NCBI RefSeq assembly: GCF_030817315.1
Contig: NZ_JAUSZF010000001.1
Location: 3,119,001 to 3,183,000 of the forward strand
Source: Sphingomonas faeni
GTDB lineage: Bacteria > Pseudomonadota > Alphaproteobacteria > Sphingomonadales > Sphingomonadaceae
Direction: 5' to 3'
Length of the DNA stretch: 64,000 nt
Below are positions 41,492 through 63,978 of the stretch, in pieces (the stretch's first letter is position 1; every line of letters starts with the position of its first letter). The notes beneath the pieces were generated by a model. It saw nothing but the letters and a program-made list of their open reading frames with translations. It was not told where the DNA came from and searched no databases. Position numbers and translations under genes: made by a program.

Positions 41492-42229
41492 GTGCAGCTC
41501 GAGCCACCGTCACCGACTCAAGCGGTTATCCGCGATGACCAAAACGAACGCATAGGCTGGTTCCTCAGCCTGACGGGCGACGAGACGAGACGTCCGACGC
41601 TAGTCGTGGCCGCGGTTCTCGCGCCCGTTCCTGAACCGATCGTCTCGCTCGCCATGCGGCTGATGTGGGGCGACCAATGCATCGCCGAGAAGCCGGTCTG
41701 GTTCGCCAAGTTCGCAACGGTCGACGAGGCCGCAGTCCGATACGACTGGCTCATCGAGCATCCCCAGGAACTGGAGTTCTGGGCATGCCAGGCGGAGATG
41801 AGCTCTGCTGATGCGCTGCTCGAACTCATAGAGGAAGGCATCCAGCTTCGACAGCTGGAGCGGCAAGAAGCCGAACACGCAGCGCAAGAGGAAGCCGACC
41901 GGGCTGCACAGATGGCTACAGCCATCGACACCCGCTGGATCGAATCAAATGGAATGTTCGGCATCGCCCTACACCGGGGTCACGACGTCTCGCCGTTCTG
42001 GACGATGCTGTTCCGAGAAAACTGGGAGCGCGACAGGTTTTACGACTGGTGGGTACACCAGCACCATCTCCTCGCCGATGTCGCCGAGTTCCTCGAGAAG
42101 AACTCCAAAGCCGACTTGGAAAAGCTTCTCCTCCACAAAATGCTCCTCACCGAGCAGGCTGTGAGGAAGGCCGGTCTCGGTTCCGGAGGAAGACGCCCGT
42201 TGCGATTCTGGCGGGGGGACGAGGCATGA
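41492..42229 (+). CDS. Hypothetical protein, first gene of the ubiquitin-like operon
   Basis: 245 residues from GTG 41492, preceded by an AAGCGGAGAG site. It looks soluble and largely helical. A central segment (LIEEGIQLRQLERQEAEHAAQEEADRAAQ) is likely a coiled coil, and the C-terminal half has several Trp residues. No domain is recognised. It shares an ATGA overlap with the AAA+-like gene, which makes it part of the same operon as the ubiquitin-like protein and E1. Its role cannot be assigned. Confidence 0.6.
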   Translation: MQLEPPSPTQAVIRDDQNERIGWFLSLTGDETRRPTLVVAAVLAPVPEPIVSLAMRLMWGDQCIAEKPVWFAKFATVDEAAVRYDWLIEHPQELEFWACQAEMSSADALLELIEEGIQLRQLERQEAEHAAQEEADRAAQMATAIDTRWIESNGMFGIALHRGHDVSPFWTMLFRENWERDRFYDWWVHQHHLLADVAEFLEKNSKADLEKLLLHKMLLTEQAVRKAGLGSGGRRPLRFWRGDEA

Positions 42230-43143
42230 ACCTCGCGTCGGCGAACTTGCATCCGATCCATCAGTCGACGACGTCCGGCTCGTCCGTAGGGTCACGGATC
42301 GACGTTCCCGAGACGAGTCCCTGTGCGATCGTGGCGCAGGGCTACTCCAGCTGTCCCATGCCTCTCGGCCTCGATCGCCCTCTGGACCTGAAGGGTGGCG
42401 ACCGGTTGGAGCCAACCGGACTGCCGATGCAGCTGAGGCTGAACTGGCTGCCGGAAGTCACGAGCCTGGTGGCCGCTGCATGCCGGGATCAATCCCTGCA
42501 AGGCGCCCAGTGGTTCAAGATGCGTCCCATCGCGCTGTCCGGGAGACGGGGCTTGGGAAGAACACATATCTGCCGGACCGTGGCGAGGGCTGCGGGAGTC
42601 CCATTCCTCAAACTCGACGTGAGCAGCGCTTCCGAGGCGACGTGGTCGTCATACGGCATGGGAGGTCCCGACATTCCCATGCCTTCGAGGGTCGTGTTGG
42701 CGATGGCGTCCTCAGGATGTGCAAACCCCCTGGTGCTCGTGACTGGTGTGGACGAATCCGCTCCCGAGACTGCCGAGAACGTGGCGTCCATGATCGCCAG
42801 CCAGAGCAGCGCCCGCTGGGTGGATGAAGCGCTCGAAGCCGTCATCGACTTGAGCAACATAAGCTGGATCGTCCAGACCGAGGATGGCGACAACCTCCCT
42901 CCATCATTTCCGGCCGACCTAGATGTCGTGGAGTTGGCGAAACCGGACCGGTACGGCGCGGCGCTTCTCGGGCTCAGCCTGTTCAACGAGGTGATCGCCG
43001 ACCTTCAGCTCAGTCGAGGAGGGCTGGAACCCGTACTCAGCTTCATCGTCGACTACGTCCGAAGCCACAGCTTCCCGTCGGTGATGGAGCTCCACCGCAT
43101 CGTCCTCGATGCCGTCGTCGAATACGACCGCGCCCGTCGATGA
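42226..43143 (+). CDS. Lon-like AAA+ domain protein with substituted ATPase motifs
   Basis: 305 residues. The stretch from residue 106 to 225 matches the AAA+ module of Lon: a Walker A-like loop GRRGLGRTH with Arg112 where Lon has the essential Lys, then VPFLKLDVSSASE, and ANPLVLVTGVDES, where Lon has NPVFLLDEIDK. The Walker B Asp-Glu pair is Thr173-Gly174 here. DLSNISWIVQTEDGDNLPPSF corresponds to sensor 1 of Lon. There is no Lon protease domain. It may bind but not hydrolyse ATP. It overlaps the previous gene and precedes the ubiquitin-like gene by 95 bp. Confidence 0.72.
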   Translation: MNLASANLHPIHQSTTSGSSVGSRIDVPETSPCAIVAQGYSSCPMPLGLDRPLDLKGGDRLEPTGLPMQLRLNWLPEVTSLVAAACRDQSLQGAQWFKMRPIALSGRRGLGRTHICRTVARAAGVPFLKLDVSSASEATWSSYGMGGPDIPMPSRVVLAMASSGCANPLVLVTGVDESAPETAENVASMIASQSSARWVDEALEAVIDLSNISWIVQTEDGDNLPPSFPADLDVVELAKPDRYGAALLGLSLFNEVIADLQLSRGGLEPVLSFIVDYVRSHSFPSVMELHRIVLDAVVEYDRARR

Positions 43144-43238
43144 AGCGAACGTCCGATCCGCCGGTCCGCGCGCGAGCCCGCTCGCCCCCGTCCGCGCCAA
43201 TCGCGCTGACCGACAACTACAGAACGAGGATGACTAGT

Positions 43239-43550
43239 ATGACAGAAGGCAGAAGTCTGGTGACCGTAGGAAACCAGGAGGAAGACCCGAGCGGCGGGAA
43301 GAATGCGGGATCCGACTGCCGCGCGATCGTCGTGAACGGGCGCAAGTGCGTCGTAAGGTCGGAGGACGTCGGTTTCGACCAGGTCGTCCGGCTCGCTTTC
43401 GGAGGCGAGGAGCCGACCCATTCGCGGTCAATGAGCGTGACCTACCGTCGAGGACCCGCAACCGCGGCGGAAGGAATCCTCAGCCACTACCAGCGGATCC
43501 CGCTCATCGATGGAGAGGAGTTCATTGTCACTCGCACCGACAAGTCCTAG
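43239..43550 (+). CDS. Bacterial ubiquitin-like protein (multiubiquitin-domain type), single domain
   Basis: 103 residues with one beta-grasp-type domain. The C-terminal half, MSVTYRRGPATAAEGIL, then the ending GEEFIVTRTDKS, closely follows the multiubiquitin (PF14452) pattern YRRGxGxxPEGxL...GxxFNVTxTDKS; AIVVNGRKCVVRSEDVGFDQVVRLAF is the N-terminal strand-helix part. There is no C-terminal di-glycine. ATG 43239 has an ACGAGGA site 8 bases upstream. The last 26 bases overlap the start of the E1-like gene, so translation is coupled. The N-terminal 25 residues are low complexity. Confidence 0.82.
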   Translation: MTEGRSLVTVGNQEEDPSGGKNAGSDCRAIVVNGRKCVVRSEDVGFDQVVRLAFGGEEPTHSRSMSVTYRRGPATAAEGILSHYQRIPLIDGEEFIVTRTDKS

Positions 43551-44751
43551 CCCGGACGTCCAGCGGCTTCGCGACGAGGGATACGCCGTATCCCTCGTCG
43601 CAGGGCACCTCGTCGTGAGCGACATCCCCTTCGCCGATGCGGACCGGAAGGTCTCGAAAGGAAGGCTGATGGTGCCCATCGACATGGTGGGCGACCGCAC
43701 CGCGGCCCCCACCAGGCACGACGCCTTCTGGTCCGGCGGCGCCCCCTGCGACCAGTACGGCGTTGCGCTCTCGAGCCTCATCACGATGCCGCTCGTCCAC
43801 GACCTGGGAAACAGCCTGTCGTCCGATCACCATCTCTGCAACATGCCGGTCGGCCGTGAGTTCTCGGACTATCACGAGCTCGTCGTCGCGTACGTGGCCC
43901 TCATCTCGGGCCACGCCTCGGCACTGGATCCAATGGCGACGGCACGAGTAAGACGACGGACCGTCAAGGCCGAGAACCCGCTGACCCCGTTCAACTACGT
44001 TGATACCGCGACGTCGCGTGCGGGCGTCGGCGCCCTCACGTCGAGGCTCGAGGGCGGACGGATCGGGATCGTCGGCCTTGGCGGGTCGGGTTCCTACGTG
44101 CTCGATCTGGTCGCCAAGACGCCCGTCTCGCACATACACCTCTTCGACGGCGACGTGTTCCTGCAGCACAACGCCTTCAGGGCGCCCGGTGCCGCCACGC
44201 TGGCGGAGATCGGCGCCCGACGTGCCAAGGTCGACCACTTCGCGTCGGTCTATTCCCGGATGCACAGAGGCATCGTTCCCCACAAGGTGAAGCTCGAGGG
44301 CGTCCATCTGCGTCTTCTGGACCACGTCGACTTCGCCTTCATCTGTATCGACGACGGCGTGTCCAAGCGACCCGTCATCGAACGGTTGGAGCGAAACGGC
44401 ACGGCGTTCGTCGACCTAGGCATGGGGCTGGAAGTGACGGAGGCGGGGATCCTGGGCTCGGTCAGGGTCACCACCAGCACCGACTCGATGCGGTCGCACG
44501 TCCGGGACGGACACCGCATACCGTTCGCGGCGGGTGGAGCTCCCGACGCCTACGAAACCAACGTGCAGGTCGCCGACCTGAACGCTTTGAACGCGGCGTT
44601 GGCGGTCATCAAATGGAAGCGGTTGCGAGGGTTCTACGCGGCTGGCGCCTCCGAGCACCACTGTCTCTTCAGCATCGACGGCAACCAGCTGCTGAACGCC
44701 GACGAGGTCGATCGCCCTGCGTCCGACGCGAGCGCGACGGGGAGGCAATGA
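43525..44751 (+). CDS. E1-like ThiF-fold activating enzyme with DUF6791-type N-terminal domain, copy 1
   Basis: 408 residues from TTG 43525, inside the end of the ubiquitin-like gene (an ATG at 43510 is possible too). Residues 1-165 look like the N-terminal DUF6791 domain that accompanies these E1s (DEGYAVSLVAGHLVVSDIPF, YHELVVAYVALISGHASALDP). The ThiF domain begins at IGIVGLGGSGSYVLDLVAK (G184xGGxG189), with HIHLFDGDVFLQHNAFRAPGA and VDFAFICIDDG. It should adenylate the C-terminus of the ubiquitin-like protein. A paralog lies at 62761-63978. Confidence 0.88.
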   Translation: MSLAPTSPSPDVQRLRDEGYAVSLVAGHLVVSDIPFADADRKVSKGRLMVPIDMVGDRTAAPTRHDAFWSGGAPCDQYGVALSSLITMPLVHDLGNSLSSDHHLCNMPVGREFSDYHELVVAYVALISGHASALDPMATARVRRRTVKAENPLTPFNYVDTATSRAGVGALTSRLEGGRIGIVGLGGSGSYVLDLVAKTPVSHIHLFDGDVFLQHNAFRAPGAATLAEIGARRAKVDHFASVYSRMHRGIVPHKVKLEGVHLRLLDHVDFAFICIDDGVSKRPVIERLERNGTAFVDLGMGLEVTEAGILGSVRVTTSTDSMRSHVRDGHRIPFAAGGAPDAYETNVQVADLNALNAALAVIKWKRLRGFYAAGASEHHCLFSIDGNQLLNADEVDRPASDASATGRQ

Positions 44752-44867: not shown

Positions 44868-45674
44868 ATGAAATCAATGTACGAGACGGCCCGGTCGCGG
44901 ATGTATCCGCATCTGGTCACGCGCGGTACCCGTCGTCCGACGTTCTGGAACATCACGGTCTCGAACGTCCCGCTCGACGAGGACAAACCACAAGGGCCCC
45001 ATGTCCTGGTCGGACCGCGAATGCTGGACGTGACGGGCAACCTGACCGACCGGGGCAGGTCCGCGGTCGCCGAATACGCGGCCGCGCGCGCGAAGCGCGA
45101 CGAGAGGGACCTGTGCGTGGTCTGGGGCGAGCATGACTGCACATGGTACGATCAGGACGGCACCGCGATACCGGGGGCGACGCCGCCGCAGGCGTTCGAG
45201 ACGCTGAACCCCTACATGTACGATCAACTTCCGATCTCGGCAGAAGCATGCTGGGTCTACAAGCTGCCCGAAGGTTCCGAGCCGTCCCATCTCTGCGTAC
45301 TGCGGATCGATGCGACCCGGATCGAGATCGCTCCCGGCGAGACGTCGATCCTCGGCGAGTTCGACGAACGACCGGTCGTGGGGGAGCGTGATCCCGCCAG
45401 CGAGATGTTCGATGCCGAAGGGCGTCTACGTCCACCGTCCACGTACCGCGGACAACCCGTAATCGAGGTCGAAGACGAGCACACCCTCATCGGCCCCGTG
45501 CAGCCGAGCCAGGACGGCGTGATACTGCGCACGCCGTGGCCGCGCCACATCAGGGAGGCGTGCAACGCGATCGCCGGCTGCGACATCGACGAGAGGATCG
45601 TCGCCTCGATCTTCGGACTTGCGCATGTCGCGGCCGATGACCTGCCCCCCGCCGGCGTCGCCGATATCACGTGA
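44868..45674 (+). CDS. Hypothetical protein downstream of the E1 gene
   Basis: 268 residues, ATG 44868, same strand and 117 bp after the E1 stop. It looks soluble and rich in beta strands (TFWNITVSNVPLDEDKPQGPHV, CVLRIDATRIEIAP). Several Trp/Tyr/Cys residues lie in the middle (VVWGEHDCTWYDQDG). It has no recognisable E2, JAB or other ubiquitin-system motif. Its position suggests a substrate, adaptor or other partner of the Ubl-E1 operon; that is only inference. Confidence 0.65.
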   Translation: MKSMYETARSRMYPHLVTRGTRRPTFWNITVSNVPLDEDKPQGPHVLVGPRMLDVTGNLTDRGRSAVAEYAAARAKRDERDLCVVWGEHDCTWYDQDGTAIPGATPPQAFETLNPYMYDQLPISAEACWVYKLPEGSEPSHLCVLRIDATRIEIAPGETSILGEFDERPVVGERDPASEMFDAEGRLRPPSTYRGQPVIEVEDEHTLIGPVQPSQDGVILRTPWPRHIREACNAIAGCDIDERIVASIFGLAHVAADDLPPAGVADIT

Positions 45675-45761
45675 ACACTTGTTCCCAGTGGCGCGAACCG
45701 CTTCTCAACATCGACATCCCGTTCTAAGTCATCGTGGATAGGCGACGGACCCGGAGGATGC

Positions 45762-46739
45762 GTGATCGACGACCGCGAACTGGACTGGATGGCTGCGCTC
45801 GATTGGTCGAAGCATGGGGCCGCGCAGGAACGCAGCGTCGTGACGAAGGGATACATCCCCTTGGCTACAGCCTTGGAAAGGCTGGCGCGACACTCGGTCG
45901 ACGTCTGGCCCGAGTCCGACGACGGGCGCTACTTCCTAAAATGCGCGGGACTAAGACCGCGTGGCGACTGGGTACCGGCGGAACTGGCGTTCGACGAGGA
46001 CGGAATGCCTCACCACTCGGTGCATGCCCGCAGCGCGCCGGCACTGGTTGCCGATGCGGAGTACCTCGCCGTTCCGATCTCATCCGCGTCCTCGGTAACG
46101 CGTGACGAGTGGGAAAGCGTCGGTATCGTCGGGGGAGACGACTGGGAATGGGGGATCGGCGCGAGACGGGTCTGGGCAAAAATCGCACCCGCCTTCGCGC
46201 AAGCAGCTTTCGAAGGGCGGATAAAGACGTACTATCGTGGACTTGGCGGCGGCAAACCGAAGCGTCTGGATAACGCTCTCTGGGAGCTTGAGTTCGAGAT
46301 GGCGGTGCGGCGGGCCGCGGCCTGCGCAATCTACATGGACAACGAGGCATGGGCGTTCGACCAGAGCCTGAAGGCCGAACACCCGATATACGTTAAAGAA
46401 GAAGGTCTGGAGGTAGCGCTGCAGGCGGTTGCCCGTGAAACGTACGCTTCTGCTCTCGATCTTAGCGATGTCGGCCAATTGCATCGGCCGATCGATGATC
46501 ATCTACCTGCGGAAGCCCGGATCGTGACCCGCCTCGCGCATCTTCTCACCGTGAGCGATCCTCGTACAAGCTCTAAGGACATCTTGTTTGACGCGCTCGA
46601 GAAGGACTTCGCCTGCGAGTTCAGCGAGCGACAGCGCAAAAGGTATTGGAGACTGGCGAAGGCGATGATCGACGTCGTTCTCCGCAAGCGTTACGAAATA
46701 CCGGGCCCGAAGCCCAAGGCGCCGACTGAACTGCGCTGA
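45762..46739 (+). CDS. Hypothetical protein
   Basis: 325 residues from GTG 45762 with a GGAGG site. It looks soluble and helical. Trp-rich stretch GDDWEWGIGARRVWAKIAPAF and an ARRLAKAMIDVVLRKRYEIPGP C-terminus are visible. It does not match a family I know. It continues the plus-strand run of genes in the left half of the island and could be in the same transcript as the preceding gene (87-bp gap). Confidence 0.65.
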   Translation: MIDDRELDWMAALDWSKHGAAQERSVVTKGYIPLATALERLARHSVDVWPESDDGRYFLKCAGLRPRGDWVPAELAFDEDGMPHHSVHARSAPALVADAEYLAVPISSASSVTRDEWESVGIVGGDDWEWGIGARRVWAKIAPAFAQAAFEGRIKTYYRGLGGGKPKRLDNALWELEFEMAVRRAAACAIYMDNEAWAFDQSLKAEHPIYVKEEGLEVALQAVARETYASALDLSDVGQLHRPIDDHLPAEARIVTRLAHLLTVSDPRTSSKDILFDALEKDFACEFSERQRKRYWRLAKAMIDVVLRKRYEIPGPKPKAPTELR

Positions 46740-49875: not shown

Positions 49876-51102
49876 CTAGCCGCGGTCTGCGGGCGAAGCA
49901 TGCAGTTCGGAGGGACGGCCGCGCTTTATCGCCGCATCCATCTCGAGGACCGCTTCGATCAGTCCGATCAGCGTTGTCGCTTGGAAATCGGACCATGCGA
50001 GACGGAGATTTCCCGTCTGCGCTTCGGCGGACATGCTCGCTGCGCGTTCGGCCGTGAGAAGGTCCCGGCTGAAGATCGTGACCCATTTCGCGCCGATGGA
50101 CTTAGTCAGACCGGTGAACTGACCGGGACGCGCCCTGGCCGCCTCGTGGAGCGCCTTGCGATAGGCCTGATCGCCGGGCCCTATGATGAGCGATATGTTG
50201 AGACGCCCCGGCTTGGCGGCGTAGCTCTTGACCTCGAAGAGCAGCCCGCGGCCGGTCTTAGACCACTCCTTCGGATCGATCCTGAAGATGTCGCATGCGT
50301 CCCACCGGTCCACGGAGAACCGCATCAGCGATCCGCCTTCGGAGTCCATCGACAAGCCTCCGCACGCCCTGACCTCCTGGCCGACGACGTCGACCAGGCC
50401 GGCCGTGCGCGGCCTGCTGGCGAAGATGAAGTCGAGCGCTTCGGTGTGCCGTTCGTACAGCTTGGCGGCCAAGCCCCTGAGCTTCTCGTCCTCCACGATG
50501 TTCCTCCTGAGCATGTCGACATAGTGTTGAATGATGAGCTGGGTCGCGTCGGGCCCCGCTTCGGAACTCGCGAGCGTCTGCAACGTGTCGGCCAGCTGGA
50601 TGTAGCTCAGGGCGTGGTAGGCCTCGTCATCCGGCGCATGACCGTCCGGGGTGAGGAAGACGAAGAGTTTCCGCCGGCTCGCATATTGGACGTCGACGAG
50701 TTCGCGGTACCGCCGGAGCTGCCCGTCACCCGCCTTCGCGTGGACCTTGTTCTCGATCACGACGACCAGGTCCAGGGCGTCGATCTCTATCAGCAGGTCG
50801 ATGCTGTCGCGCTCCCTGTGGACGATCGCGTCGTCGAGGTCGCCGACGAGCAGTTCCAGTATGCTCACGGGCCGGGATCCGGGCGGCATCGCGTCGAGCA
50901 CCTGCCTAAGGATCAGCTGCAGCGCACGCGGCCCGAGGCCGTGCGGCCGGCTGGGGGACAGGAGATAGGCGAGGAAGTTCGAGTGGCGGAGTTCTCCGTG
51001 GACGGCGCCCATCGCCTCGAACAGGTTGAACCGGGACATCCGCTTCTGGATCTCCCAGAAGCCGTCGTCGTCCAGCAGCGCACTGATGCCGTCATCGATC
51101 AC
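49876..51102 (-). CDS. PD-(D/E)XK nuclease superfamily protein
   Basis: 408 residues. The N-terminal half carries the pattern of PD-(D/E)XK restriction-like nucleases of the PF14281 type: ELRHSNFLAYLLSP around E37, then DSIDLLIEIDALDLVVVIENKVHAKAGDGQLRRY, with D102, E117 and K119 forming the active-site D...E-x-K. The C-terminal half is uncharacterised (WDACDIFRIDPKEWSKTGRGLLFEVKSY). Such genes usually occur in phage-defence or mobile-element settings. The 557-residue gene lies upstream on the same strand (168-bp gap), and the two may work together. Confidence 0.83.
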   Translation of the reverse strand: MIDDGISALLDDDGFWEIQKRMSRFNLFEAMGAVHGELRHSNFLAYLLSPSRPHGLGPRALQLILRQVLDAMPPGSRPVSILELLVGDLDDAIVHRERDSIDLLIEIDALDLVVVIENKVHAKAGDGQLRRYRELVDVQYASRRKLFVFLTPDGHAPDDEAYHALSYIQLADTLQTLASSEAGPDATQLIIQHYVDMLRRNIVEDEKLRGLAAKLYERHTEALDFIFASRPRTAGLVDVVGQEVRACGGLSMDSEGGSLMRFSVDRWDACDIFRIDPKEWSKTGRGLLFEVKSYAAKPGRLNISLIIGPGDQAYRKALHEAARARPGQFTGLTKSIGAKWVTIFSRDLLTAERAASMSAEAQTGNLRLAWSDFQATTLIGLIEAVLEMDAAIKRGRPSELHASPADRG

Positions 51103-52944: not shown

Positions 52945-53367
52945 CGGTGCCCTCCGATAGACGACCGGTTTCGACTACGTTCCCGATACCGCTACACTCG
53001 CCATCGGGACTCGTCAGCGATCGCAATCCATACACGGACAGGACCGGGAAGCCGGACTCCGCTCGGGATGGACCCATGTGAAGTCGTCCGCACACGTCGG
53101 CGGCCGTCGCATCGAGGGAGGGGGCCATACGGCGCCTCTATTGCAGGGAGACCTGGGTCACGACGGTTCCGGCGTTGGGAGATCGGCCTCGCGGGTTCGC
53201 TGTCGCACCGACGCAGGAGCGCGAACGGTCCGGCTTCGGTAGCCCCCGGCATATCTAGGCTGAGATAGAGGGAGGGGAGGATTCCCTTCCGGATCCAAGC
53301 ACAAGGCTGATCCTCGAAAGTATTGGCTGCGGCGGTCCAAGACCACCATCTGCATGAGGACTGCAGG
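52945..53367. other. Gap between divergent genes
   Basis: A 420-bp stretch between the divergent 557-residue gene (-) and the transposase-like gene (+). It should hold promoters for both. No clear -35/-10 pair, hairpin or repeat could be assigned by eye. Confidence 0.4.
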
Positions 53368-54450
53368 ATGAGTTTTGCAGCGTCAAAACGACGCAGGATG
53401 AAAGCCAAGATGAGCAAGGAAGTCGACTTGACCGGAGTGCATCCGGTCAAAAGGGCGGAGACGCTTCGCAGGATCGAAGTGGTGAAGGCGTTCATATCCC
53501 TCAGTCGTCCCACCAAGGCCGAGGGGGAGCGGCATGCGAAATCGCTGGGCATCGGGTACAACCAGTTCCTCGTGCTCGTTCGCGCGTGGATGGAGCACGG
53601 CCGTGCAAGCGCGATGCCGGGTGCGAAAAAACGCATGAGGCTCTTCCACGAGCATCAACTCCGCAGGCTGGACCCCGCAATCGAAGAGATCATCGCCGAT
53701 GTGATCGAGGAGAAGGGGGCGTTCGGCCGCCTCACGGTCATACTCGACGCCGTACGGCATCGCTGCGAGGAGGCGGGCCTGAAGCCTCCGACCATGCAAG
53801 GCTTGCGACCTCGTCTGGACGAGGCGCGACGTCGGGCTCCATCGTCCGATCTCGACGGTCGGGCCGTTCTGATCGGCCGCGCCCTGACCGACGTTCCGGT
53901 ATTGCATAACGACGGGGTCATGGAGCCGGCGCTGCTGGTGCTCTCGATACAGGCGAGCACCCGCAGGGTGCTCGCCTATGGGGTCGGCTCGCCGTCGCGC
54001 CCGCCTGAAGTCGCCGCCGTCCTCATGGAGACCGTCAAGTATCCCGTCGTCGCCGTGCAGCGAGACATACGGGTCTCCTTGCCGCCCGGTTTCGAACGCG
54101 ACCGGCTGATGGTCGCGGCGCGCGCCGCCGGCTTGGACGGCGTGACTTGGCTCAGCGGCACGCCCGCCCCTCACGACAGCGTATACGCAGTGTTGGGCGG
54201 ACGCCTCGGCGACGTGCGTGTGGGCGAATTCCAGCAACGCCGGAACTGGAAGCTCCAGCCCGTGCTCAACGCGCGAACGGCATCGCCGCTCTCGGAAGGC
54301 GAAGTCGAAGCCGTGATCGCCGCGGCGGTCGCCGAACATAATGCTTCGCATCCACCGCTGGACGCTGAGCCGGTCCCAGCCGCGCCTGGCGATGTGAATA
54401 TGATCGAGCGTCTCCGGGATGCGTTCGAAGCTACTGCCACAAGGTCCTAG
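53368..54450 (+). CDS. Mu/TnsB-like transposase-fold protein, small, copy 1
   Basis: 360 residues from ATG 53368 (GAGGA site 7 bp upstream). Residues 20-80 form a helix-turn-helix region (AETLRRIEVVKAFISL, HAKSLGIGYNQFLVLVRAW). Residues 98-157 form a second one of the kind found in Mu-type transposases (LDPAIEEIIADVIEEKGAFG, LRPRLDEARRRAP). The core has D175 (ALTDVPVL), D233 (AVQRDIRV) and E287 (RVGEFQQ), arranged like a reduced DDE domain. It is about half the size of the TnsB-like protein. Copy 2 is convergent and overlaps by 20 bp. DNA binding is likely; strand transfer is uncertain. Confidence 0.62.
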   Translation: MSFAASKRRRMKAKMSKEVDLTGVHPVKRAETLRRIEVVKAFISLSRPTKAEGERHAKSLGIGYNQFLVLVRAWMEHGRASAMPGAKKRMRLFHEHQLRRLDPAIEEIIADVIEEKGAFGRLTVILDAVRHRCEEAGLKPPTMQGLRPRLDEARRRAPSSDLDGRAVLIGRALTDVPVLHNDGVMEPALLVLSIQASTRRVLAYGVGSPSRPPEVAAVLMETVKYPVVAVQRDIRVSLPPGFERDRLMVAARAAGLDGVTWLSGTPAPHDSVYAVLGGRLGDVRVGEFQQRRNWKLQPVLNARTASPLSEGEVEAVIAAAVAEHNASHPPLDAEPVPAAPGDVNMIERLRDAFEATATRS

Positions 54451-55561
54451 CGGCGTTGCGCAGGAGTACCGAGAGTTTCTTGCGGGTTTCCGTGGTCGCC
54501 TCGTTCTCAGGCCCGTCGCCGATCAGGCTATCGTTGTGACGTGACATGGCGCGGGAGAGCAGGGCGATCACCTGCTTCCTGTTCACGACCGGAAAGTCGT
54601 CGGGATCGAGGGAAGAGGCGCCTTCGCCGGTCACCATGCGCACCCTGCCGAGAGAAGGGCCGAGGGCCGCGCGCACCAGCCGACCCGGACTGTCCTCCTG
54701 CTGCATCCAACCCGCCTGCCGCGAGAACACGCGCAACATCTCCATCACACCCTGATCCGTTATCGCGACGGTGACTGTGGTCTCCTCCTCCGCCGCCGCG
54801 ATGCCGGGAAGAGGAGTAGCGTCAAGGTAGCGCGCCGCCGTTCGCGCTGCGACGGCTAGCGTCCGCGGTCCGGGTGAGTCGGTCACCACGGCGGCACCGA
54901 GCGCCAAACGGCTTCCAACATCCAGGACAATGGTGCAGCGCCAACCGCGGCCATGGTCGTCGCGCAGCGCCAGCGAGACCTCGTCGAAGGTGATGTGACG
55001 ACCCAGAATCAGTTGAGCGGGCGGGGCGGCACGGAGTTCGTGCACGATCCGGCGAACTGCGTTCTGAGCCAGGTCGACCTTCTTGAAGCGCGGATCGCGC
55101 AAGACCGAAGTGACGACCGCGTCGACCGCGACCCCAGAATCCGGGGACGTACCCCCCTCGATGCCGCGTACGATGGTCTTCACGACCTCGTGCGCTTCCT
55201 GCTTGGCTCCCCAGACCGGACGGGCATGCGGCTCGGTCCGAAGACGCAGCAGTGACAGCGACCGGCCGTCCCTTCCATTCTCGGAGACAGCCGCTTCCGC
55301 CCTTTTCCAGCTCTGGACGATGTTGCGAAGCGCCCCCTGCGCCAAGCCGGTGTCCTCACAGAGACGCTCCTTGATGCCCTCCGGGTCGCCGCGCGGCAGT
55401 TCCGTCCACGCCTTAATGGCACCCAGGCGCCTTAGGATCGCGTCCCGTCGAACCGGGCTCGCCGCCAACCACGCTTCCAGCTCCTCGACCGGCAGGGAAC
55501 CTCCAAACGCCCACTGGAGCATCTCATCAGCGCCGCCGGTGAGCGCTTTGCTTCTGTTCAT
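54431..55561 (-). CDS. Mu/TnsB-like transposase-fold protein, small, copy 2
   Basis: 376 residues, start ATG 55561. Same order as copy 1: N-terminal helix-turn-helix region (DAILRRLGAIKAWTEL, DTGLAQGALRNIVQSWKRA), a second one (EVVKTIVRGIEGG, LAQNAVRRIVHELRAA), then a core with D193 (ITFDEVSLAL), D269 (AITDQGVM) and E313 (MVTGEGAS). The two proteins align by eye over their whole length but are well diverged. The catalytic assignment is tentative. The last 20 bases overlap copy 1. It is transcribed away from the tns operon. Confidence 0.62.
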   Translation of the reverse strand: MNRSKALTGGADEMLQWAFGGSLPVEELEAWLAASPVRRDAILRRLGAIKAWTELPRGDPEGIKERLCEDTGLAQGALRNIVQSWKRAEAAVSENGRDGRSLSLLRLRTEPHARPVWGAKQEAHEVVKTIVRGIEGGTSPDSGVAVDAVVTSVLRDPRFKKVDLAQNAVRRIVHELRAAPPAQLILGRHITFDEVSLALRDDHGRGWRCTIVLDVGSRLALGAAVVTDSPGPRTLAVAARTAARYLDATPLPGIAAAEEETTVTVAITDQGVMEMLRVFSRQAGWMQQEDSPGRLVRAALGPSLGRVRMVTGEGASSLDPDDFPVVNRKQVIALLSRAMSRHNDSLIGDGPENEATTETRKKLSVLLRNAARTLWQ

Positions 55562-56311: not shown

Positions 56312-56622
56312 GCGGCGTGCGCGTGCCGGTCGCGACCGCGCCGTCGTACATTCCGATCCTCACGGTCGTCACCGACCGTGAGGACGGGGTCGCCATCGGC
56401 TCCGTCGTCGTCCTGGACGGATCGGACTCGATCTACCTGGGCAGGACGGCGACCGGAGGTCACGCCTTCGCGATCAAGGGCGGCAGGTCCACCGAGAAGG
56501 CGGGGCGTACCCCGATGGTCGTAGTCAAGAGCTTGGCGAGGGCCATGGAGCAGGGGCGCCTCGGCCGAACGGTCCGACGCCGCGGTCCCAGACCCGGCCA
56601 GTCCTGGGGGCGACAGTCGTGA
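56308..56622 (+). CDS. Small hypothetical protein directly upstream of tnsA
   Basis: 104 residues, ATG 56308 in the overlap with the 76-residue gene. The strand-rich part PILTVVTDREDGVAIGSVVVLDGSDSIYLGR is followed by a basic tail (RLGRTVRRRGPRPGQSWGRQS). It ends in a GTGA overlap with tnsA, so it is translationally coupled to it. Unknown family; coupling suggests a role in transposition or in controlling TnsA. Confidence 0.55.
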   Translation: MSGVRVPVATAPSYIPILTVVTDREDGVAIGSVVVLDGSDSIYLGRTATGGHAFAIKGGRSTEKAGRTPMVVVKSLARAMEQGRLGRTVRRRGPRPGQSWGRQS

Positions 56623-57524
56623 AGTCGGAGCCGGAAGCGGCCGCCGACGCGAAGCCCGGGCGGATCAGGATCCCAGTATCGCAGATCGCGGTGAGGGGTA
56701 CCAAGCTGGACGCCCTCTACGATCCGGCGATGGCGCCGACCCGCGCGCGCATCCTTCCCATCGCGGACCTGAACCGGGAAGCGATCGAGAACGCGCAAGC
56801 GATGGCGACCCTGATCCGCGAGGAGGACGGAGGGCCGCTGCGAACCTTCAGTGGAGGGCTCACCCATGAGAACGGCTGGCACCCCTCCTACAAGGCCCGC
56901 CGCCTGCTGCACTGGGAAGGAGAGGCGCAGCTCGAATACATCACGGCCGCGGACCTCGATCACGACGTCGTTCACGTGGGCACCGAATGTCTCCGCGTCG
57001 AGTTCCCGCTCGACGGCGCCATGGTTCACTACACGGTCGACGTGGAGACCGTCGGACCCGATGGAAGACGCCGTGCAATCGAGATCAAGCGTGACGAGAA
57101 GGATCTCGAGAACCAGGCGTATCGTCTCAAACTCGCCTACGTCCGCGAGATCCTGCGCCGATGCGACATCGATTTCCGGATCGTCCTGAGAAGCGAGATC
57201 TTCGCAAGCCGCCAGCACCGTCGCAACGTCGAGGACTTCGCGTCGCGCCGCTTCCGCAGCATCGAGCTCGCCCCCGGCAAACGCTTCGAGCGCTACGCCG
57301 CAGCCAACGAGACCTCGACCTACGGTGAACTCGCCGCGGCGATCGAACCAACTTCCCAGGTCCAAGGGCGTGCCACCGTCCAGGCGCTCGTCGCGCGGCG
57401 TCGCGTAGTCATTGATCTGACCGGGCCGGTCCGCGACACGACCCCGGTGCGCATCGTCGGTCTCCGCAAGAAGACCCGTGCCGCGTCACGTTCCTCCCGT
57501 CGGGCGACGCCCGGGAACGCCTGA
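56619..57524 (+). CDS. tnsA: TnsA-like transposon endonuclease
   Basis: 301 residues from GTG 56619. The N-terminal nuclease domain has W-x-E-G-E-A-Q-L-E (E102/E106), HYTVDVETVG (D141) and AIEIKRDEKD (E155-x-K157), the restriction-type catalytic set of TnsA, which cuts the 5' ends during cut-and-paste Tn7 transposition. The C-terminal part (STYGELAAAI, ATVQALVARRRVVIDLTG) resembles the winged-helix domain of TnsA that touches TnsC. The 187 bp before tnsB contain its ribosome site only. Presence of TnsA implies cut-and-paste movement. Confidence 0.85.
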   Translation: MKSEPEAAADAKPGRIRIPVSQIAVRGTKLDALYDPAMAPTRARILPIADLNREAIENAQAMATLIREEDGGPLRTFSGGLTHENGWHPSYKARRLLHWEGEAQLEYITAADLDHDVVHVGTECLRVEFPLDGAMVHYTVDVETVGPDGRRRAIEIKRDEKDLENQAYRLKLAYVREILRRCDIDFRIVLRSEIFASRQHRRNVEDFASRRFRSIELAPGKRFERYAAANETSTYGELAAAIEPTSQVQGRATVQALVARRRVVIDLTGPVRDTTPVRIVGLRKKTRAASRSSRRATPGNA

Positions 57525-57711
57525 GGCGACGACGTCAGACGAGCCCCGACCGGCTCGCAAACATCCATTCCCGCATCCGTGGAACGCAGAACTCGGAGTC
57601 GCAGGACTCGTCGGAGCGGGGCGTCCGATCCGGGCGACCAGACCTCGCAACCGACTGAAGCCGCGGCGTCAGGGCCGGCCTCCGCATCATTCCCAACCAA
57701 GGAGAAGTCCA

Positions 57712-59901
57712 ATGGCCAAGAACAACCTCGAGAACCTGATCGTCGAGATCGACGGCGCCGTCCATGCCTACGGAGGGCATCTCATGGGGCGTCTGCAGCT
57801 GACCAACGCGCTTACCGGAGCGCCGTTCGTGGCTCCCCAGGCCGACGGGACGGTCCAGCTGATCGACGACGTGCAGTTCGATCGCCTGCTCGATGAGGGG
57901 CGCGTCAAGATCAGGTCGAAGCCCTCGTCCGACCCGACGCGGCGCTTCAACGACGCCGCCCAATGGACGTTGGACCAGGCGGCGGAGATCGATCCCGCGG
58001 CGCCCAAGAGGCTGGCGCAGCTCGAGATGCTGGACGCCGCAGGCGTCCTGAACGGATCGAAGGCGATTGACCAGTTCATGGCGGCTAGCTGGGGGGAGGC
58101 GCAGATCGCGAAGTGGGGCCCTTACGACAATCCGCACACGCTCCGGAGGTGGCGCGCGAAGCGCGGCAAGGCGGGCCGGCGCCACGCGCGCCAGATGATC
58201 CGCATGAACGGACGCGTTCCCCGAGGACCGTATGGCGCGGGCGTTCCGGCGGAGGTGGCACAGAAGCACGCCTACGACCACTGGGTGACGAAGGCCCGCG
58301 TCAAGGATACCTACTCGAACTACGTCGCCGAGATGACGCTGATCAACGAGGGGGCCCACCAGCACTACGCCCGGCCGGACGCCCCGTACATGATCGCTTC
58401 CGAGGAGACGATCCGACGCCGGTGCAACGCGCTGGAACGGGCCGAGTCCGATGCCGTGAAGCGGGGCACCAAAGCCCTCGAGCAGGACTGGATGGGCGGC
58501 GGGCGTCCGCTGACGGCCAGCTTCGCGATGCAGAGGGTCATAATCGACCATACGCGTCTCGACGTCCACGTCCGCGACGAGACGCGTGAAATCGTACTGG
58601 GCAGACCGTGGCTGACGCTGGCCATCGACGTGGCGACCAGAGCGGTCGTCGCGTACCTCATCACGTTTGTAGATCCGTCGGCATGGACCGTCGGTGAGAT
58701 TCTGCGACGGATGGCGCTGCCGAAGAGGCCCCCGGCCGATTTGGCGACCCGCTACCCCATCCTAGCTCAGATCCGCGGAAAGCCGCACGAGGTCATCGTC
58801 GACAACGCCACCGAGTTCCGAAGCCACACGATGGAGGCGGCGGCGCGCGCCGCGGGTTTCGGCGTCCGGTACTGTCCGGTGGGGCGGCCGAGGTATCGCG
58901 CAATAGGCGAACGCCCGATGGGCACGGTCCCCCGTCTCATCTGCGAAAACATGCCGGGACGCGTGATGCTCTTAAATGAGGCGAAGCGCCTCGATGACAA
59001 ACCCGAAAAGGACGCTTGGGCGACCATGGACGAGCTGGAAGGGATCGCGAACCACGCGGTCGCAGAGTACAACGTCAATCCGCACGACGGCATCGGCGGA
59101 CGGCAGCCAGCCCTCTTGTTCGAGATCGACGCGAACCGCCGCGGCATCGACAACTTCGCCGATTTGGATTCCTTTCGGCTGGATACGATGGCGATCCACG
59201 TGGACGCTCAACTCTCTCCGTCGGGCATCCGGGCCTTCGGCTGCCTCCGCTACCATCACGTGGCCCGTGTGCCCGATCTGCTGAGCGATCTTCGTCCCAG
59301 CGAATGCAGGCGCAAGCGGCGCGACGACGCGACCGCGACCGTGGACTTCCGGTACGATCCCATGGACATCTCACGCATCTATGTCTGGAACCGCGTCCGG
59401 CGTACCTACGTGGAACTCGTCTGCGACGATGAGGACTATGCGGACGGCATGCCTTTGTACCTGCATGAAATGATCCGCGATTTCGCCACCGCCCAGAAGT
59501 TGGCGTTCAACACGTCGGCGGAGCGGGCGCTCGCCCGCTCGCGGCGGATCCAGGCCATCCGCAAGGTCAGGCCGAAGGACGAGGCCAAGGAACGCAATGC
59601 CGTCGCCAAGCTCTACGAGATTCCCAGGCTGCGTCAGATCACGGGGAATATCGTCCACCTGCACACCGAGCGCTCGACTGTGACCGTCGGGGAATTCATC
59701 TCCCACGACCGCGTTGCGCTTACGTCCCTCGACAGCGAGATCCTGTCGCCAAGGCCGCAGATCGGCGGACGCCGTCACGGACCGGCGTCAGACAGGCAGG
59801 ATCGCCGCGATGCCGGTTCGGAGTCGTCCCATCAGGACGGCACGGCCGCTCCGCCGGTGCGCCGCCGCCGAGGCGCCAGCCTCATGGGAGACGACCAGTG
59901 A
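57712..59901 (+). CDS. tnsB: TnsB-like DDE transposase (Mu/TnsB family)
   Basis: 729 residues from ATG 57712 (AAGGAGAA site). N-terminal DNA-binding region, then the RNase H-like core: D279 in VIIDHTRLDV, D364 in EVIVDNATEF and E400 in GERPMGTVPR. This is an intact DDE triad with 35 residues between the last two. The beta-barrel C-terminal domain follows (IYVWNRVRRTYVELVCDD) and an Arg-rich tail (RRRRGASLM) that could bind TnsC. Its stop overlaps the GTG of the ATPase gene (GTGA). It carries out 3' end cleavage and joining. Confidence 0.93.
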   Translation: MAKNNLENLIVEIDGAVHAYGGHLMGRLQLTNALTGAPFVAPQADGTVQLIDDVQFDRLLDEGRVKIRSKPSSDPTRRFNDAAQWTLDQAAEIDPAAPKRLAQLEMLDAAGVLNGSKAIDQFMAASWGEAQIAKWGPYDNPHTLRRWRAKRGKAGRRHARQMIRMNGRVPRGPYGAGVPAEVAQKHAYDHWVTKARVKDTYSNYVAEMTLINEGAHQHYARPDAPYMIASEETIRRRCNALERAESDAVKRGTKALEQDWMGGGRPLTASFAMQRVIIDHTRLDVHVRDETREIVLGRPWLTLAIDVATRAVVAYLITFVDPSAWTVGEILRRMALPKRPPADLATRYPILAQIRGKPHEVIVDNATEFRSHTMEAAARAAGFGVRYCPVGRPRYRAIGERPMGTVPRLICENMPGRVMLLNEAKRLDDKPEKDAWATMDELEGIANHAVAEYNVNPHDGIGGRQPALLFEIDANRRGIDNFADLDSFRLDTMAIHVDAQLSPSGIRAFGCLRYHHVARVPDLLSDLRPSECRRKRRDDATATVDFRYDPMDISRIYVWNRVRRTYVELVCDDEDYADGMPLYLHEMIRDFATAQKLAFNTSAERALARSRRIQAIRKVRPKDEAKERNAVAKLYEIPRLRQITGNIVHLHTERSTVTVGEFISHDRVALTSLDSEILSPRPQIGGRRHGPASDRQDRRDAGSESSHQDGTAAPPVRRRRGASLMGDDQ

Positions 59902-60848
59902 GCGGGGTCGAAGGCGGGACCCCTCCCGTCGAGCTGTCGTCGATCGTCGACGTCCGGGAGCGCATCGCCGAGGGGAGGCGACGCTTCGACCGGATACGCC
60001 TGGAGCATGCTCCGCAGCGCAACGCCATCGACATGCTCGACGACGTGCGCCGCGCGGGCATCGGCCGCCGTGCCGGCGCGGTCTGCGGCGGAGCCATCCT
60101 CGTCGCTCCGTTCGGCACCGGAAAGACCTGCGCGATCGAGACCCTGTGCGAAGAGGTCAACGGTGCGGCGGACGTTCGACCGGACATCATACCCGTCCTG
60201 CACGTCAAGCTGAGCGTCGCAGGCACCACGGACGCCGTCCCCACGCAGATCCTGCGTGCGTTGGGAAAGCCCAAGCCCGGGTCTGGCAAGGAATCGGTCC
60301 GATGGGACAGGGCGATCCAAGGCATGTTGAACGCCGGGGTCCAGTTGGCCCTCATCGACGAGTTCAACCGGGCGGCCCGCCGGCCGACCATGAGCGGACC
60401 GATCGCCGACATGATCCAGGAGCGTATCGTCGACGAAGGGATCGCCCCCATCGCCATCATCGGGTCGGAGGCGGCCGGATCCGTGCTCAGGTCGGCAAAG
60501 GGTCTGATGGAGCGGCTGGACGACCAGATCGACCTGGAGCCCATGGAGTGGGTTCACGATCAGACGCTCTTCTGTGGTTTCATGGGAGCCCTGGACGCCG
60601 CCATCGTCGACGCGGGCATCCTCGACGAAACGTCAGGTCTCGATCATCCAACCGTGGCTGAAAACCTCTGCATTGCGTCGGACGGCCGCCTGCGCCGGAT
60701 CATGAAGATCATCAGGATCGCGTCTGCCACGGCTGTGCGTCGAGGCGATACGGCCATGACGGTCGCCGATCTCGCCGAGGGGGTCGCAGCCTATGCCGGC
60801 ACGCGCCGGTTCATCGAGGACAACCCGTTCGAGGAGAAGTCGAATTGA
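59898..60848 (+). CDS. tnsC: TnsC/TniB-like AAA+ ATPase
   Basis: 316 residues from GTG 59898. Walker A APFGTGKT (residues 70-77) and Walker B LIDEF (D154, E155) are intact. The remainder (KGLMERLDDQIDLEPMEW, LRRIMKIIRIASATAVRRGD) follows the TniB family. TnsC-type ATPases choose the target site, linking TniQ to TnsB. It overlaps tnsB and the tniQ gene (ATGA at 60845), so the core is one operon. Confidence 0.92.
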   Translation: MSGVEGGTPPVELSSIVDVRERIAEGRRRFDRIRLEHAPQRNAIDMLDDVRRAGIGRRAGAVCGGAILVAPFGTGKTCAIETLCEEVNGAADVRPDIIPVLHVKLSVAGTTDAVPTQILRALGKPKPGSGKESVRWDRAIQGMLNAGVQLALIDEFNRAARRPTMSGPIADMIQERIVDEGIAPIAIIGSEAAGSVLRSAKGLMERLDDQIDLEPMEWVHDQTLFCGFMGALDAAIVDAGILDETSGLDHPTVAENLCIASDGRLRRIMKIIRIASATAVRRGDTAMTVADLAEGVAAYAGTRRFIEDNPFEEKSN

Positions 60849-62786
60849 CCCGTACCGATGGCAACGTCGACCTCGGCGCGTCTCCCCTTCCGGGCGAATC
60901 CCTCGACGGTTTCATCGCCCGCAGGGCCGCCGTCGAGGGCCTCCCCAATACGCTCGTGATCACCGCAGCCGCCGGCGTGAGGTGGGCCCACCGACCTGCG
61001 ATAGGGCTGGCGACGTCCGCTCAGCTGCTAGCGGTGGCGGAAAGCATGGGTTTCGACCACGAGGAGCTCGTCCTCCGGTCTTCTCCCGTCGCCCCGGGTG
61101 GGCGCAACCGCCGCTTCTTCGGCCTGGACCTGGATCACCGCCACTTCGCCAACAGCCGGCGTCGCTTCTCCCCGACCTCCCTCACGGCGTCACCCCATCA
61201 TCGCGCGCTCTGGGGGCTTCGGCCCTTCCCGTTCTGCGACGAGAGCTGGGAGATGCTGCTGGACACGTGTCCGGATCCGGAATGCCGTACGGTCCAGCGC
61301 TGGCATCACGCCATGGGCATCGAACTCTGCGACCGCTGCGTCGAGCCCCTGAGCCGGGCGGCGGCCCCCGTCGTACCCGAGGAACTCCGGTCTGCGCTCC
61401 ACCTCATGATCGGGCTCATGCATCCGGATCAGCGCCGCCGCTCCGAAAGCTCCGGACGTCTGCCCGGATGTCTGCGAGACCTGTCGGCTGGAGATCTGCT
61501 CGACATTGGGCTGCGCCTTGGCAGGGGTGCACGACCCGAGCATACGGCAGAGGAGCAACCGACGCCTGTTCGCGGACGACGCGTCCGCGAAGTCCGTCAC
61601 GGAGGCGATGGCCGCCGCCTGGACGATGCTGGAGGGCTGGCCCAACGTGTTCGCGGAACTTGCGGGAACCAGGCTGGCGACGCGGACCGGTCGGCACGGG
61701 GACGGGAACAAGGGCGCGACCGAGGCCTTCCTGGCGTTGGCCGACAGTCCGTCGGTCGCTGCCCCGGTCAGGGAAGTCGTCGCACGCCTTCGCGCTGATC
61801 TGTATCGGTCCGACCACGGGCTGGACATCAAGGCCGCTGCCGTTCTCTCCGGCCTGCGGATCCGCGAATTGACCGGACTGAGACGGGGCCTGTTCGTCAA
61901 GACGATCTTTGCCATCCACGACGACAGACCGCTGCCGCTCATCTGCAAGGCCGATCTCGAAAGGCTTGGAACTCTGCTGCGATCGACGTCATCCTTGGGA
62001 AAGGCCGCCATCGAGCTGGGGATCACCTACCGCGGCGTGGAGGAACTCGTCTGGGCGGGGCGGCTCGAAGCGATCGAAGAGCCCGCGCTCGCCTTCCTGG
62101 AACGCGAACGGCGGGTCGGTTCGGTATCCGTCGAACGTCTCCGGTCAGCAGTCCTCGCGCGGTCGACGCCTACCCGGCCGGAGGGTTCGGTTCCGCTGCG
62201 CCGGGCGATGGTCGGCATACCCGGACTGAAACCCTGGGCGCCCGTCCTCGAAGCCATCGCAGATGGACGGTTGCAGGCTTTCGTCGCCTCCGCACCCGTA
62301 GCCCTGGCCGATCGGATCTCCGTTCGTCCAGACGCAGTCGTAAGACTATGCGAGCACCGCGCGGCCACCCCCGCCAGCGTCGGCATCGTCTCCGACATGA
62401 TGTCCAAGAAGGAGGCGTTGGAAGCGCTCGGGCTCCATCCTCGCCACGGAGCCTGCATCCTTTCGGAATGGCCCGTGAGGACAGGTAGCGACCGCACGGT
62501 CCCGGTCGCCGCCGTAGAAACCCTTGCGTCGACCGCCATCAGTCCCGCCGAGGCTGCCGCACGCTTTGGGGGAACCTCCCTGGCGGTGGCGCGCCTGCTC
62601 CAGAGACGGTGCGTGCCGTCCATTCCCGGTGGTCTGTTCGATCGCGGCAAGGCGGAGGAGACGTTGCGTTCGTGCGGCGTCCTTCGTTCGGGAGAAGCGC
62701 ATGCCGCTGGTAGCCGCTCGAGCCACCAGCACTACACCCCGGCAGCAGAGGAGACGTTCATTGTCACGCGCATCGACAGGCCGTAA
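60845..62786 (+). pseudogene. tniQ: TniQ/TnsD-like target-selection protein, frameshifted, with ubiquitin-like-protein tail
   Basis: N-terminal TniQ domain with zinc-binding DTCPDPECRTVQRWH...ELCDRC in one frame to about 61507. From there the continuous frame is the next one (ALAGVHDPSIRQRSNRRLFADD to the end). Removing one G from GGG at 61508-61510 gives 646 residues, as long as TnsD-type site-selecting proteins. The C-terminal half has several helix-turn-helix-like repeats (SLGKAAIELGITYRGVEELV; ISPAEAAARFGGTSLAVARLL). The last residues, EETFIVTRIDRP, match the end of the ubiquitin-like protein (GEEFIVTRTDKS). Confidence 0.85.
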
Positions 62787-63978
62787 TCCCGATCTCCGGC
62801 GTCTGCGCGACGAGGGATACTCGCTCTCCGTCGCCCGCGGGCGCCTCGTCGTGACGGGCATCCCTTTCGTGTCCGGCCCAGGCCGTATCGAGCGCGGTAC
62901 CCTCATCGTTCCGCTGGACATGGTCGAAGGCACCACCGCACGACCGACCGGGCGCGACGTGTTCTGGGTCGGAGCCGTACCGTGCGACGACCGCGGCGTT
63001 CCGATCGACGATCCCATCACGTCGCCGCTCCGGCGCGATTTCGGAGGCGGGCTCGTCGCCAACCACCTTCTCCATGCGAAGCCCGACGACGGCGGGTTCG
63101 AGGACTACCACCAGTTGGTCAGCAGCTACGTGGGCCTGATCTGCAGGCACGCCATCTCACTGGATCCGACCGTCACGGCGCGCGGCCGCCGGCGGGTAGT
63201 CGTGACCGAGAATCCACAGGGCCCGTTCGATTACGCGGACACCGCGAGCCAGAGAACCGGCATCGGCGCATTCAGTGGGAAACTCGAAGGCAGCAGCGTC
63301 GCCATCGTCGGTCTCGGCGGGACCGGTGCCTACGTCCTGGACCTCGTAGCGAAGACCCCGGTCGCCCGAATCCATCTGTTCGATGACGAGACGCTCCACC
63401 AGCACGACGCCTTCCTCTCACCGGGCGCGGCGTCGTTCGCCGAGATCGGAGCTGCGCCCGCCAGAGTCGATCACTACGCAGCGCTCTATTCGCGCGTGCA
63501 TCGCGGCGTCGTGCCGCATCGGAGCGGATTGTTGGTCGCATCCCTCGCGATGCTGGATCAGGTGGACTTCGCATTCCTATGCATTGACGGTACCGCGGCG
63601 AAGCGTCCGGTCATCGAACATCTCGAACGAACCGGAAAGCGCTTCGTCGATCTGGGGATGAAACTGCGCCTGACGCCAACCGGCGTCTCCGGAACGGTCA
63701 GGATCACGACCAGCACTCCAGCGATGCGATCACACGTCCGGGACATGAACCGCATCCCGTTCCCGACGGACAGTAGGGGAGACGACGATGCCTGCAATCT
63801 GCAGGTCGCCGAACTGAATGCGCTGAACGCTGCGCTAGCGGTCATCCGCTGGAAGAAGCTCTACGGCTTCTACGCCGATCCGCTCGGTGAACACCACGCC
63901 GTGTATAGCGTGGACGGCAACCAGGTCCTCAACACGGACAGCGATGGCGCCGCGGGAACCCGGTGCGGCCCATCCTGA
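62761..63978 (+). CDS. E1-like ThiF-fold activating enzyme with DUF6791-type N-terminal domain, copy 2
   Basis: 405 residues from TTG 62761 with an AGAGGAG site 7 bp upstream, inside the last 26 bases of tniQ. It aligns with copy 1 (43525-44751) over its full length: DEGYSLSVARGRLVVTGIPF, YHQLVSSYVGLICRHAISLDP, and VAIVGLGGTGAYVLDLVAK, with G184xGGxG189 at exactly the same residue number. VARIHLFDDETLHQHDAFLSPGA and VDFAFLCIDGT follow. The copies are clearly related but diverged. A partner ubiquitin-like gene is not seen upstream; its place is taken by the end of tniQ. Confidence 0.87.
   Translation: MSRASTGRNPDLRRLRDEGYSLSVARGRLVVTGIPFVSGPGRIERGTLIVPLDMVEGTTARPTGRDVFWVGAVPCDDRGVPIDDPITSPLRRDFGGGLVANHLLHAKPDDGGFEDYHQLVSSYVGLICRHAISLDPTVTARGRRRVVVTENPQGPFDYADTASQRTGIGAFSGKLEGSSVAIVGLGGTGAYVLDLVAKTPVARIHLFDDETLHQHDAFLSPGAASFAEIGAAPARVDHYAALYSRVHRGVVPHRSGLLVASLAMLDQVDFAFLCIDGTAAKRPVIEHLERTGKRFVDLGMKLRLTPTGVSGTVRITTSTPAMRSHVRDMNRIPFPTDSRGDDDACNLQVAELNALNAALAVIRWKKLYGFYADPLGEHHAVYSVDGNQVLNTDSDGAAGTRCGPS

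Follow-up and report, generated by a model that had tools for sequence, protein, structure and literature searches.

Tn7-like transposons carry tnsA, tnsB, tnsC and tniQ in that order, as overlapping genes, and multiubiquitin (PF14452)-DUF6791/ThiF operons pair a ubiquitin-like protein (Ubl) with a PRK06153-type E1-like protein (E1). Both occur in the stretch of Sphingomonas faeni DNA analysed here (the window; 64,000 nt, C1:3119001-3183000 of a 4.37-Mb genome in five contigs). The window's Ubl and its own E1 (E1a) are typical of the second kind of operon, including a 26-nt overlap between the two genes, and the Ubl ends in TDKS, as does the multi-ubiquitin protein of PDB 9cd2. The window's tns operon has the Tn7-like gene order, and differs from described elements in that tniQ is split and a second E1 gene (E1b) follows it as a fifth gene; E1b in turn differs from the other E1s in that tniQ replaces the Ubl gene and conserved adenylation-site residues are altered. 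The tniQ frame ends in a tail resembling that of a Ubl, and the initial annotation suggested that the E1 might activate this tail. We conclude that the tniQ/E1b junction is probably a recombination scar that retains the translation-start region of an E1 gene, and that the tail most likely does not serve as a tag for conjugation.

Two further systems resemble parts of this locus. Identity with Citrobacter BubCD (PDB 9ea4, 9ea5, 9eae, 9eav) is about 16%, and we do not assign the DUF6791 operons to the Bub pathway; Bub is presented in PMC13373217 as a family of putative immune pathways for which phage protection is not yet demonstrated. In TnsF-TniQ fusions, as described in PMC10293859, a captured gene likewise lies beside tniQ and is able to fuse and be domesticated; those fusions involve a DNA-binding region, whereas what the window's tniQ would carry is no more than a remnant of the E1 start site, about a dozen codons long. 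Neither ubiquitin nor ThiF occurs in the main text of the Tn7 surveys PMC8649781 and PMC10293859, Tn7-like and ubiquitin terms occur in unrelated places in the accessible part of PMC2621215, and no paper in the literature collection searched combines TniQ with ThiF.

A 26-nt overlap with the upstream frame is a signature of the E1 family

The Ubl open reading frame (ORF) stops at position 43550 and E1a starts with a TTG codon at 43525; the C-terminal part of tniQ stops at 62786 and E1b starts with a TTG codon at 62761. Each overlap is therefore 26 nt, and these coordinates bear out the initial annotation, which had reported a shared tail and a TTG start inside the last 26 bases of both upstream ORFs. 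The two overlaps share 20 of their 26 bases, and the E1a and E1b proteins are 56% identical. The ORF behind tnsC ends EETFIVTRIDRP at 62786, and its overlap with E1b matches two genuine Ubl/E1 overlaps at 20 and 22 of 26 bases, respectively.

We extracted 54 E1 loci by script, 50 of them non-identical and E1b's among them; the set excludes the partial E1s L011 and L012 and one further match (G315:C14) that lacks a locus. All 50 DUF6791-ThiF loci, which come from several phyla, have a +1-frame ORF that stops exactly 26 nt into the E1 gene. The 26-nt Ubl/E1 overlap is thus a strong signature of the family. A Ubl profile built from nine proteins matched the upstream ORF with an E-value of 1e-3 or better in 49 of the loci, the exception being the window's tniQ (E 0.019). 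The nominal E1 start codon is ATG in 38 loci, TTG in six and GTG in three, with the non-start codon GCG in the remaining three. Among plasmids, 35 of the 40 rows listed (of 108 records) had a protein annotated as multiubiquitin at the E1 match.

The tails of the 49 Ubls follow a pattern resembling F-x-V-T-x-T-x-x-S, with F at position -9 in 47, V at -7 in 49, T, S or C at -4 in 49 and S at -1 in 48; the TniQ tail has F, V, I and P at these positions. One genuine Ubl, P0133 (on a 563-nt contig), ends DGETFIVTRTDRP (ETFIVTRTDRP), close to the TniQ tail AEETFIVTRIDRP, and this closeness suggests that the operon from which E1b stems may have had a Ubl with a P0133-like end.

The initial annotation proposed that the ribosome site and the coupled start are shared between the two junctions. 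This holds for the translation-start region of the E1 gene, consisting of the 26-nt overlap and, by eye, about 10-16 nt containing the ribosome site; it does not extend further, since the 70 nt upstream of the E1b overlap showed no significant similarity to the corresponding DNA of either the window's Ubl (559 of 2000 shuffles reached the score) or the G137 Ubl (997 of 2000). Because the E1 start lies 26 nt inside the Ubl gene, an E1 gene that moves with its start site brings a Ubl-like tail with it in the +1 frame.

tniQ is frameshifted, and the other TniQ loci read show neither the tail nor an E1

TniQ was initially read as one open frame. Instead, it is split, with the TniQ domain in an N-terminal frame and the tail in a C-terminal one (Table 1). 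The closest TniQ, P0002 (628 aa), matches the window as residues 1-226 (90% identity) and 220-628 in different frames, and it and the other five full-length relatives examined (P0003-P0007) read straight across the break at 61500-61515. The two-frame match indicates that tniQ is frameshifted near 61500, owing to either a mutation or an assembly error. The N-terminal part overlaps the tnsC stop by 4 nt.

P0002 stops before the tail. The H codon that matches its end finishes at 62726, and the window's frame continues for 19 residues; P0003-P0007 have other ends, also without the tail. We read 35 TniQ loci together with their downstream DNA, two of which were the window itself. The remaining 33 loci (31 different genes) represent 19 of the 40 non-window matches in 295 genomes of the genus and all 14 non-window matches in 396 genomes of the order; the other 21 genus matches, mostly weaker, lie outside this set. 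In none of the 33 did the 0.8-1.5 kb read behind tniQ contain an E1 (threshold E 1e-3), and none had a similar tail. By the reasoning of the initial annotation itself, which held that related tniQ genes ending before the tail and other tns operons lacking the E1 would mark the tail as the scar of one recombination, these observations point to such a scar. They also support, as do the 50 family-wide overlaps, the first of its two proposals, in which a piece of the partner Ubl gene came along with the E1.

No E1b orthologue that could lie on the contig of P0002 was found among the best 120 matches listed for E1b, which is weak evidence because the same 120 do not include E1b's own protein. No TniQ relatives were found in viral contigs, and P0002 had no match in plasmids at 1e-30. 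Three distant E1 loci are present in viral contigs.

An AlphaFold2 (AF2) model of the C-terminal part of TniQ, based on seven sequences, had a mean confidence (pLDDT) of 73. Residues 394-426, the 33 C-terminal residues that hold the tail, have a pLDDT below 50 and are predicted to be disordered, and residues 331-390 in front of them are modelled as helices with short strands (pLDDT 85-94). The same seven-sequence model contains no beta-grasp domain directly before the tail. A fold search of the Protein Data Bank with the C-terminal part gave no match at an E-value of 0.001, a result that by itself says nothing about the fold.

E1b is a divergent paralogue with altered adenylation-site residues

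E1b contains DUF6791 and ThiF and scores above the cut-off for NCBIfam PRK06153.1-4. There is no Ubl gene directly upstream of it: the 26-nt overlap is present, but the upstream ORF is tniQ. A search of the genome with E1b returned only itself and E1a as close relatives, the third match being weak (E 4.3e-4). PADLOC matches of both E1a and E1b to E1-E2 models were partial.

Using a set of 74 columns conserved in at least 95% of sequences, built without E1a and E1b, we found that E1b deviates at six; the next highest number among 121 sequences was three, the median was one and E1a deviates at two. The deviations include R219L and K235R, at positions where Arg and Lys are kept in 119 of 119 homologues. 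In an alignment with BubCD the two sites fall in its N-x-x-R and P-K-V-D stretches, and we take them to have a role in ATP binding at the adenylation site. E1b also has the longest terminal branch in the tree (0.86, against a median of 0.15). Its frame is open and coding-like, with a GC content at third codon positions (GC3) of 0.79, and like E1a it keeps the G-L-G-G-T-G loop, D208 and C274, all of which are shared by at least 90% of the 62 sequences aligned. Judged by its sequence, E1b is a paralogue that is intact but evolves fast and has changed at adenylation-site residues, and its activity is presumably reduced.

Organization of the tns operon and the Ubl-E1 operon

The genes tnsA-tnsB-tnsC-tniQ span positions 56619-62786, followed by E1b (Table 1). 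TniB (PF05621) and TniQ (PF06527) both score above the Pfam cut-off in an operon with transposase genes, as in Tn7-like transposons. The rve, Mu-transpos_C and TnsA-like_N matches are all below cut-off; homologues in the tns operon of G086, which has the closest TnsB found, are 47-54% identical (tnsA 47% and 54% over two pieces, TnsB 54% across 704 residues). A search for terminal repeats using the 147 nt after E1b (20-mers with up to 4 mismatches, in the window and its flanks) gave only scattered matches, none of them convincing. The opposite-strand gene downstream of the tns operon, which we take to be sbcC-like, has its 3' end at window position ~64122. An empty site sought by means of this gene (L002 3123-6827) was not found: a search of 24 other genomes gave no homologue at E 1e-50, and the gene may therefore be accessory itself.

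Table 1. Positions of the tns-operon and Ubl-E1-operon features within the window
Feature	Position	Strand	Remarks
Two genes before Ubl	41492..43143	+	41492-42229 of unknown function; 42226-43143 AAA-like ATPase, below Pfam cut-off
Ubl, single multiubiquitin domain	43140..43550	+	ends GEEFIVTRTDKS; later start at 43239 possible
E1a, partner E1 of the Ubl, with TTG start within the Ubl gene	43525..44751	+	DUF6791 6.3e-38, ThiF 1.3e-7
tnsA-type nuclease	56619..57524	+	PF08722 (TnsA-like_N) E 0.023, below cut-off
tnsB-type DDE transposase	57478..59901	+	rve 5.2e-5, Mu-transpos_C 0.0067, both below cut-off
tnsC/tniB AAA ATPase	59898..60848	+	PF05621 TniB 2.3e-7, above cut-off
tniQ, N-terminal part (TniQ domain)	60845..61798	+	PF06527 1.4e-6, 29.4 bits against a cut-off of 27
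tniQ, C-terminal part with tail, other frame	61506..62786	+	88% identical to P0002 residues 220-628
Tail of the tniQ C-terminal frame past the end of P0002, QHYTPAAEETFIVTRIDRP plus stop	62727..62786	+	P0002 ends ..NRSSH
26-nt overlap, end of tniQ C-terminal frame and start of E1b	62761..62786	+	same geometry in 50 of 50 E1 loci
E1b, second E1 (DUF6791 + ThiF, PRK06153-like), TTG start	62761..63978	+	fifth gene of the tns operon

Apart from the Ubl, which lies 19 kb from E1b, the genome has no PF14452 match. The score of the Ubl was 24.1 bits against a cut-off of 24.5, and 24.6 bits, above the cut-off, in the whole-genome search. E1a has an alternative in-frame ATG start at 43510, which is used by the database protein P0009.

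Ubl-E1 operons recur near tns operons of the genus

Of the 26 other genomes of the genus with a DUF6791 match, we describe seven that contain the genes of the Ubl-E1 operon. Homologues of the gene at 41492, the AAA-like gene, Ubl and E1 are grouped 10-27 kb from tniQ in G137, G022, G008 and G255. The operon lies 43-58 kb from tniQ in G157 and G299, where we do not claim that the two belong to one element, and in G084 no tns gene was found in the 40 kb read. A Ubl-E1 operon thus occurs near a tns operon in six other genomes of the genus (L048-L052, L115-L120, L123-L125), or seven with the window. Six genomes were picked for E1 and TniQ matches on one contig, so that the pattern shows recurrence and does not test for enrichment. 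In G086, the 46 kb read contained no Ubl-E1 match. G020 and G005 carry fragments of an E1 gene behind the same upstream genes.

The gene pair 44868/45762 lies directly behind tniQ in G137 and behind E1a in the window. These two genes of unknown function (44868-46739) make up a cargo pair of their own; 11 of the 295 genus genomes, the window's included, have a homologue of 44868. We considered the pair as part of the Ubl operon, with a whole ancestral Ubl operon behind tniQ, and rejected this because of that distribution and because 11 non-window loci have no E1 in their flanks. The genes directly behind tniQ thus differ between elements, which fits cargo capture at this position.

Several other features lie in or around these elements. 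Upstream of tnsA (53323-55561) are two ORFs of unknown function, one on each strand, without a Pfam match, the first of which has relatives near the tns operons of G022 and G086. Short TnsB-like ORFs are found near the tns operons of G137 and G008. A PD-(D/E)XK_4 family nuclease (PF14281, 8.1e-22; 49876-51102, - strand) is possible defence cargo.

Origin of the tniQ/E1b junction

The favoured origin of the junction is as follows. An E1 gene from a Ubl-E1 operon would have come to lie downstream of tniQ, within a Tn7-like tns operon, a placement supported by the comparisons above, with an order of events that we infer. Only about a dozen codons of its former Ubl would have remained, such that the C-terminal tniQ frame runs on through what is left and terminates where the ancestral Ubl did. 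The overlap would couple translation, with ribosomes that end the upstream frame restarting at the E1b TTG; the tail would be no conjugation tag, and E1b would be carried as cargo within the tns operon. Several observations weigh against this origin. tniQ had a one-in-three chance of reading in-frame into the tail, and that reading could have been selected. Loss of the terminal Ser was considered as a sign of decay and dropped, since P0133, a genuine Ubl, also ends in Pro (DRP). P0002 was compared as a protein, and its gene may or may not be followed by an E1. E1b retains the G-L-G-G-T-G loop, D208 and C274; the K235R substitution is mild, and the residue corresponding to G301 is a Lys in BubCD. 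E1b is also free of stop codons over its long branch (a neutral simulation gave a mean of 3.3 stops, with none in 8 of 200 runs), and is thus probably still selected for something. Finally, the 147 nt searched after E1b did not reveal the outer ends of the element.

It is very improbable that TniQ carries a functional Ubl-type tail that is adenylated by E1b, with protein conjugation acting in Tn7-like target choice. The match to the tail of P0133, a real Ubl, and the presence in tniQ's own operon of an intact E1b with its loop, D208 and C274 would fit such a role; nevertheless, tniQ is frameshifted, the region before the tail is modelled as helical and the tail itself as disordered, positions -4 and -1 depart from residues kept in 49 and 48 of the 49 Ubls, E1b lacks the otherwise invariant Arg and Lys, and the nearest TniQ has no tail. 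That the tail match arose by chance is scarcely credible. The lack of significant similarity further upstream speaks for chance, but the overlap shares up to 22 of 26 bases with genuine Ubl/E1 overlaps, its stop position is that of the other 49 loci, and an E1 of 56% identity follows; the family-wide geometry already refutes chance.

A third explanation takes the tail as meaningless and E1b as a working part of the transposition module, either a diverged enzyme or a pseudo-enzyme that uses or blocks the Ubl at 43140-43550 and thereby modifies or regulates Tns proteins. Its position as the last gene of an overlapping operon, its open, coding-like frame at the end of the longest branch, the genome's sole PF14452 Ubl 19 kb away and the Ubl-E1 operons near tns operons in six other genomes are consistent with this. 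We nonetheless regard it as doubtful, given that the 33 other TniQ loci have no E1 within the DNA read behind tniQ, that the adenylation-site residues are changed and that other genes can follow tniQ, as the 44868/45762 pair does in G137. Decidedly doubtful is a more specific form, in which a domesticated, catalytically altered E1b would be a regulatory subunit of the Tn7-like module, acting with or against the Ubl in trans, and the overlap would match the level of E1b to that of TniQ.

Implications

Recognizing a recombination scar at the tniQ/E1b junction removes a tempting but wrong inference, because TniQ has a Ubl-like tail for the reason that Ubl and E1 genes overlap; a conjugation function of this tail is unlikely. 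The comparison also brings out that Ubl-E1 operons of one type recur close to Tn7-like tns operons (seven genus genomes, counting the window's) and that an E1 paralogue has become part of the tns operon in one element. From its sequence and position, a role of E1b in transposition is possible. If E1b were a regulatory subunit, Ubl conjugation, or its inhibition, would control transposition.

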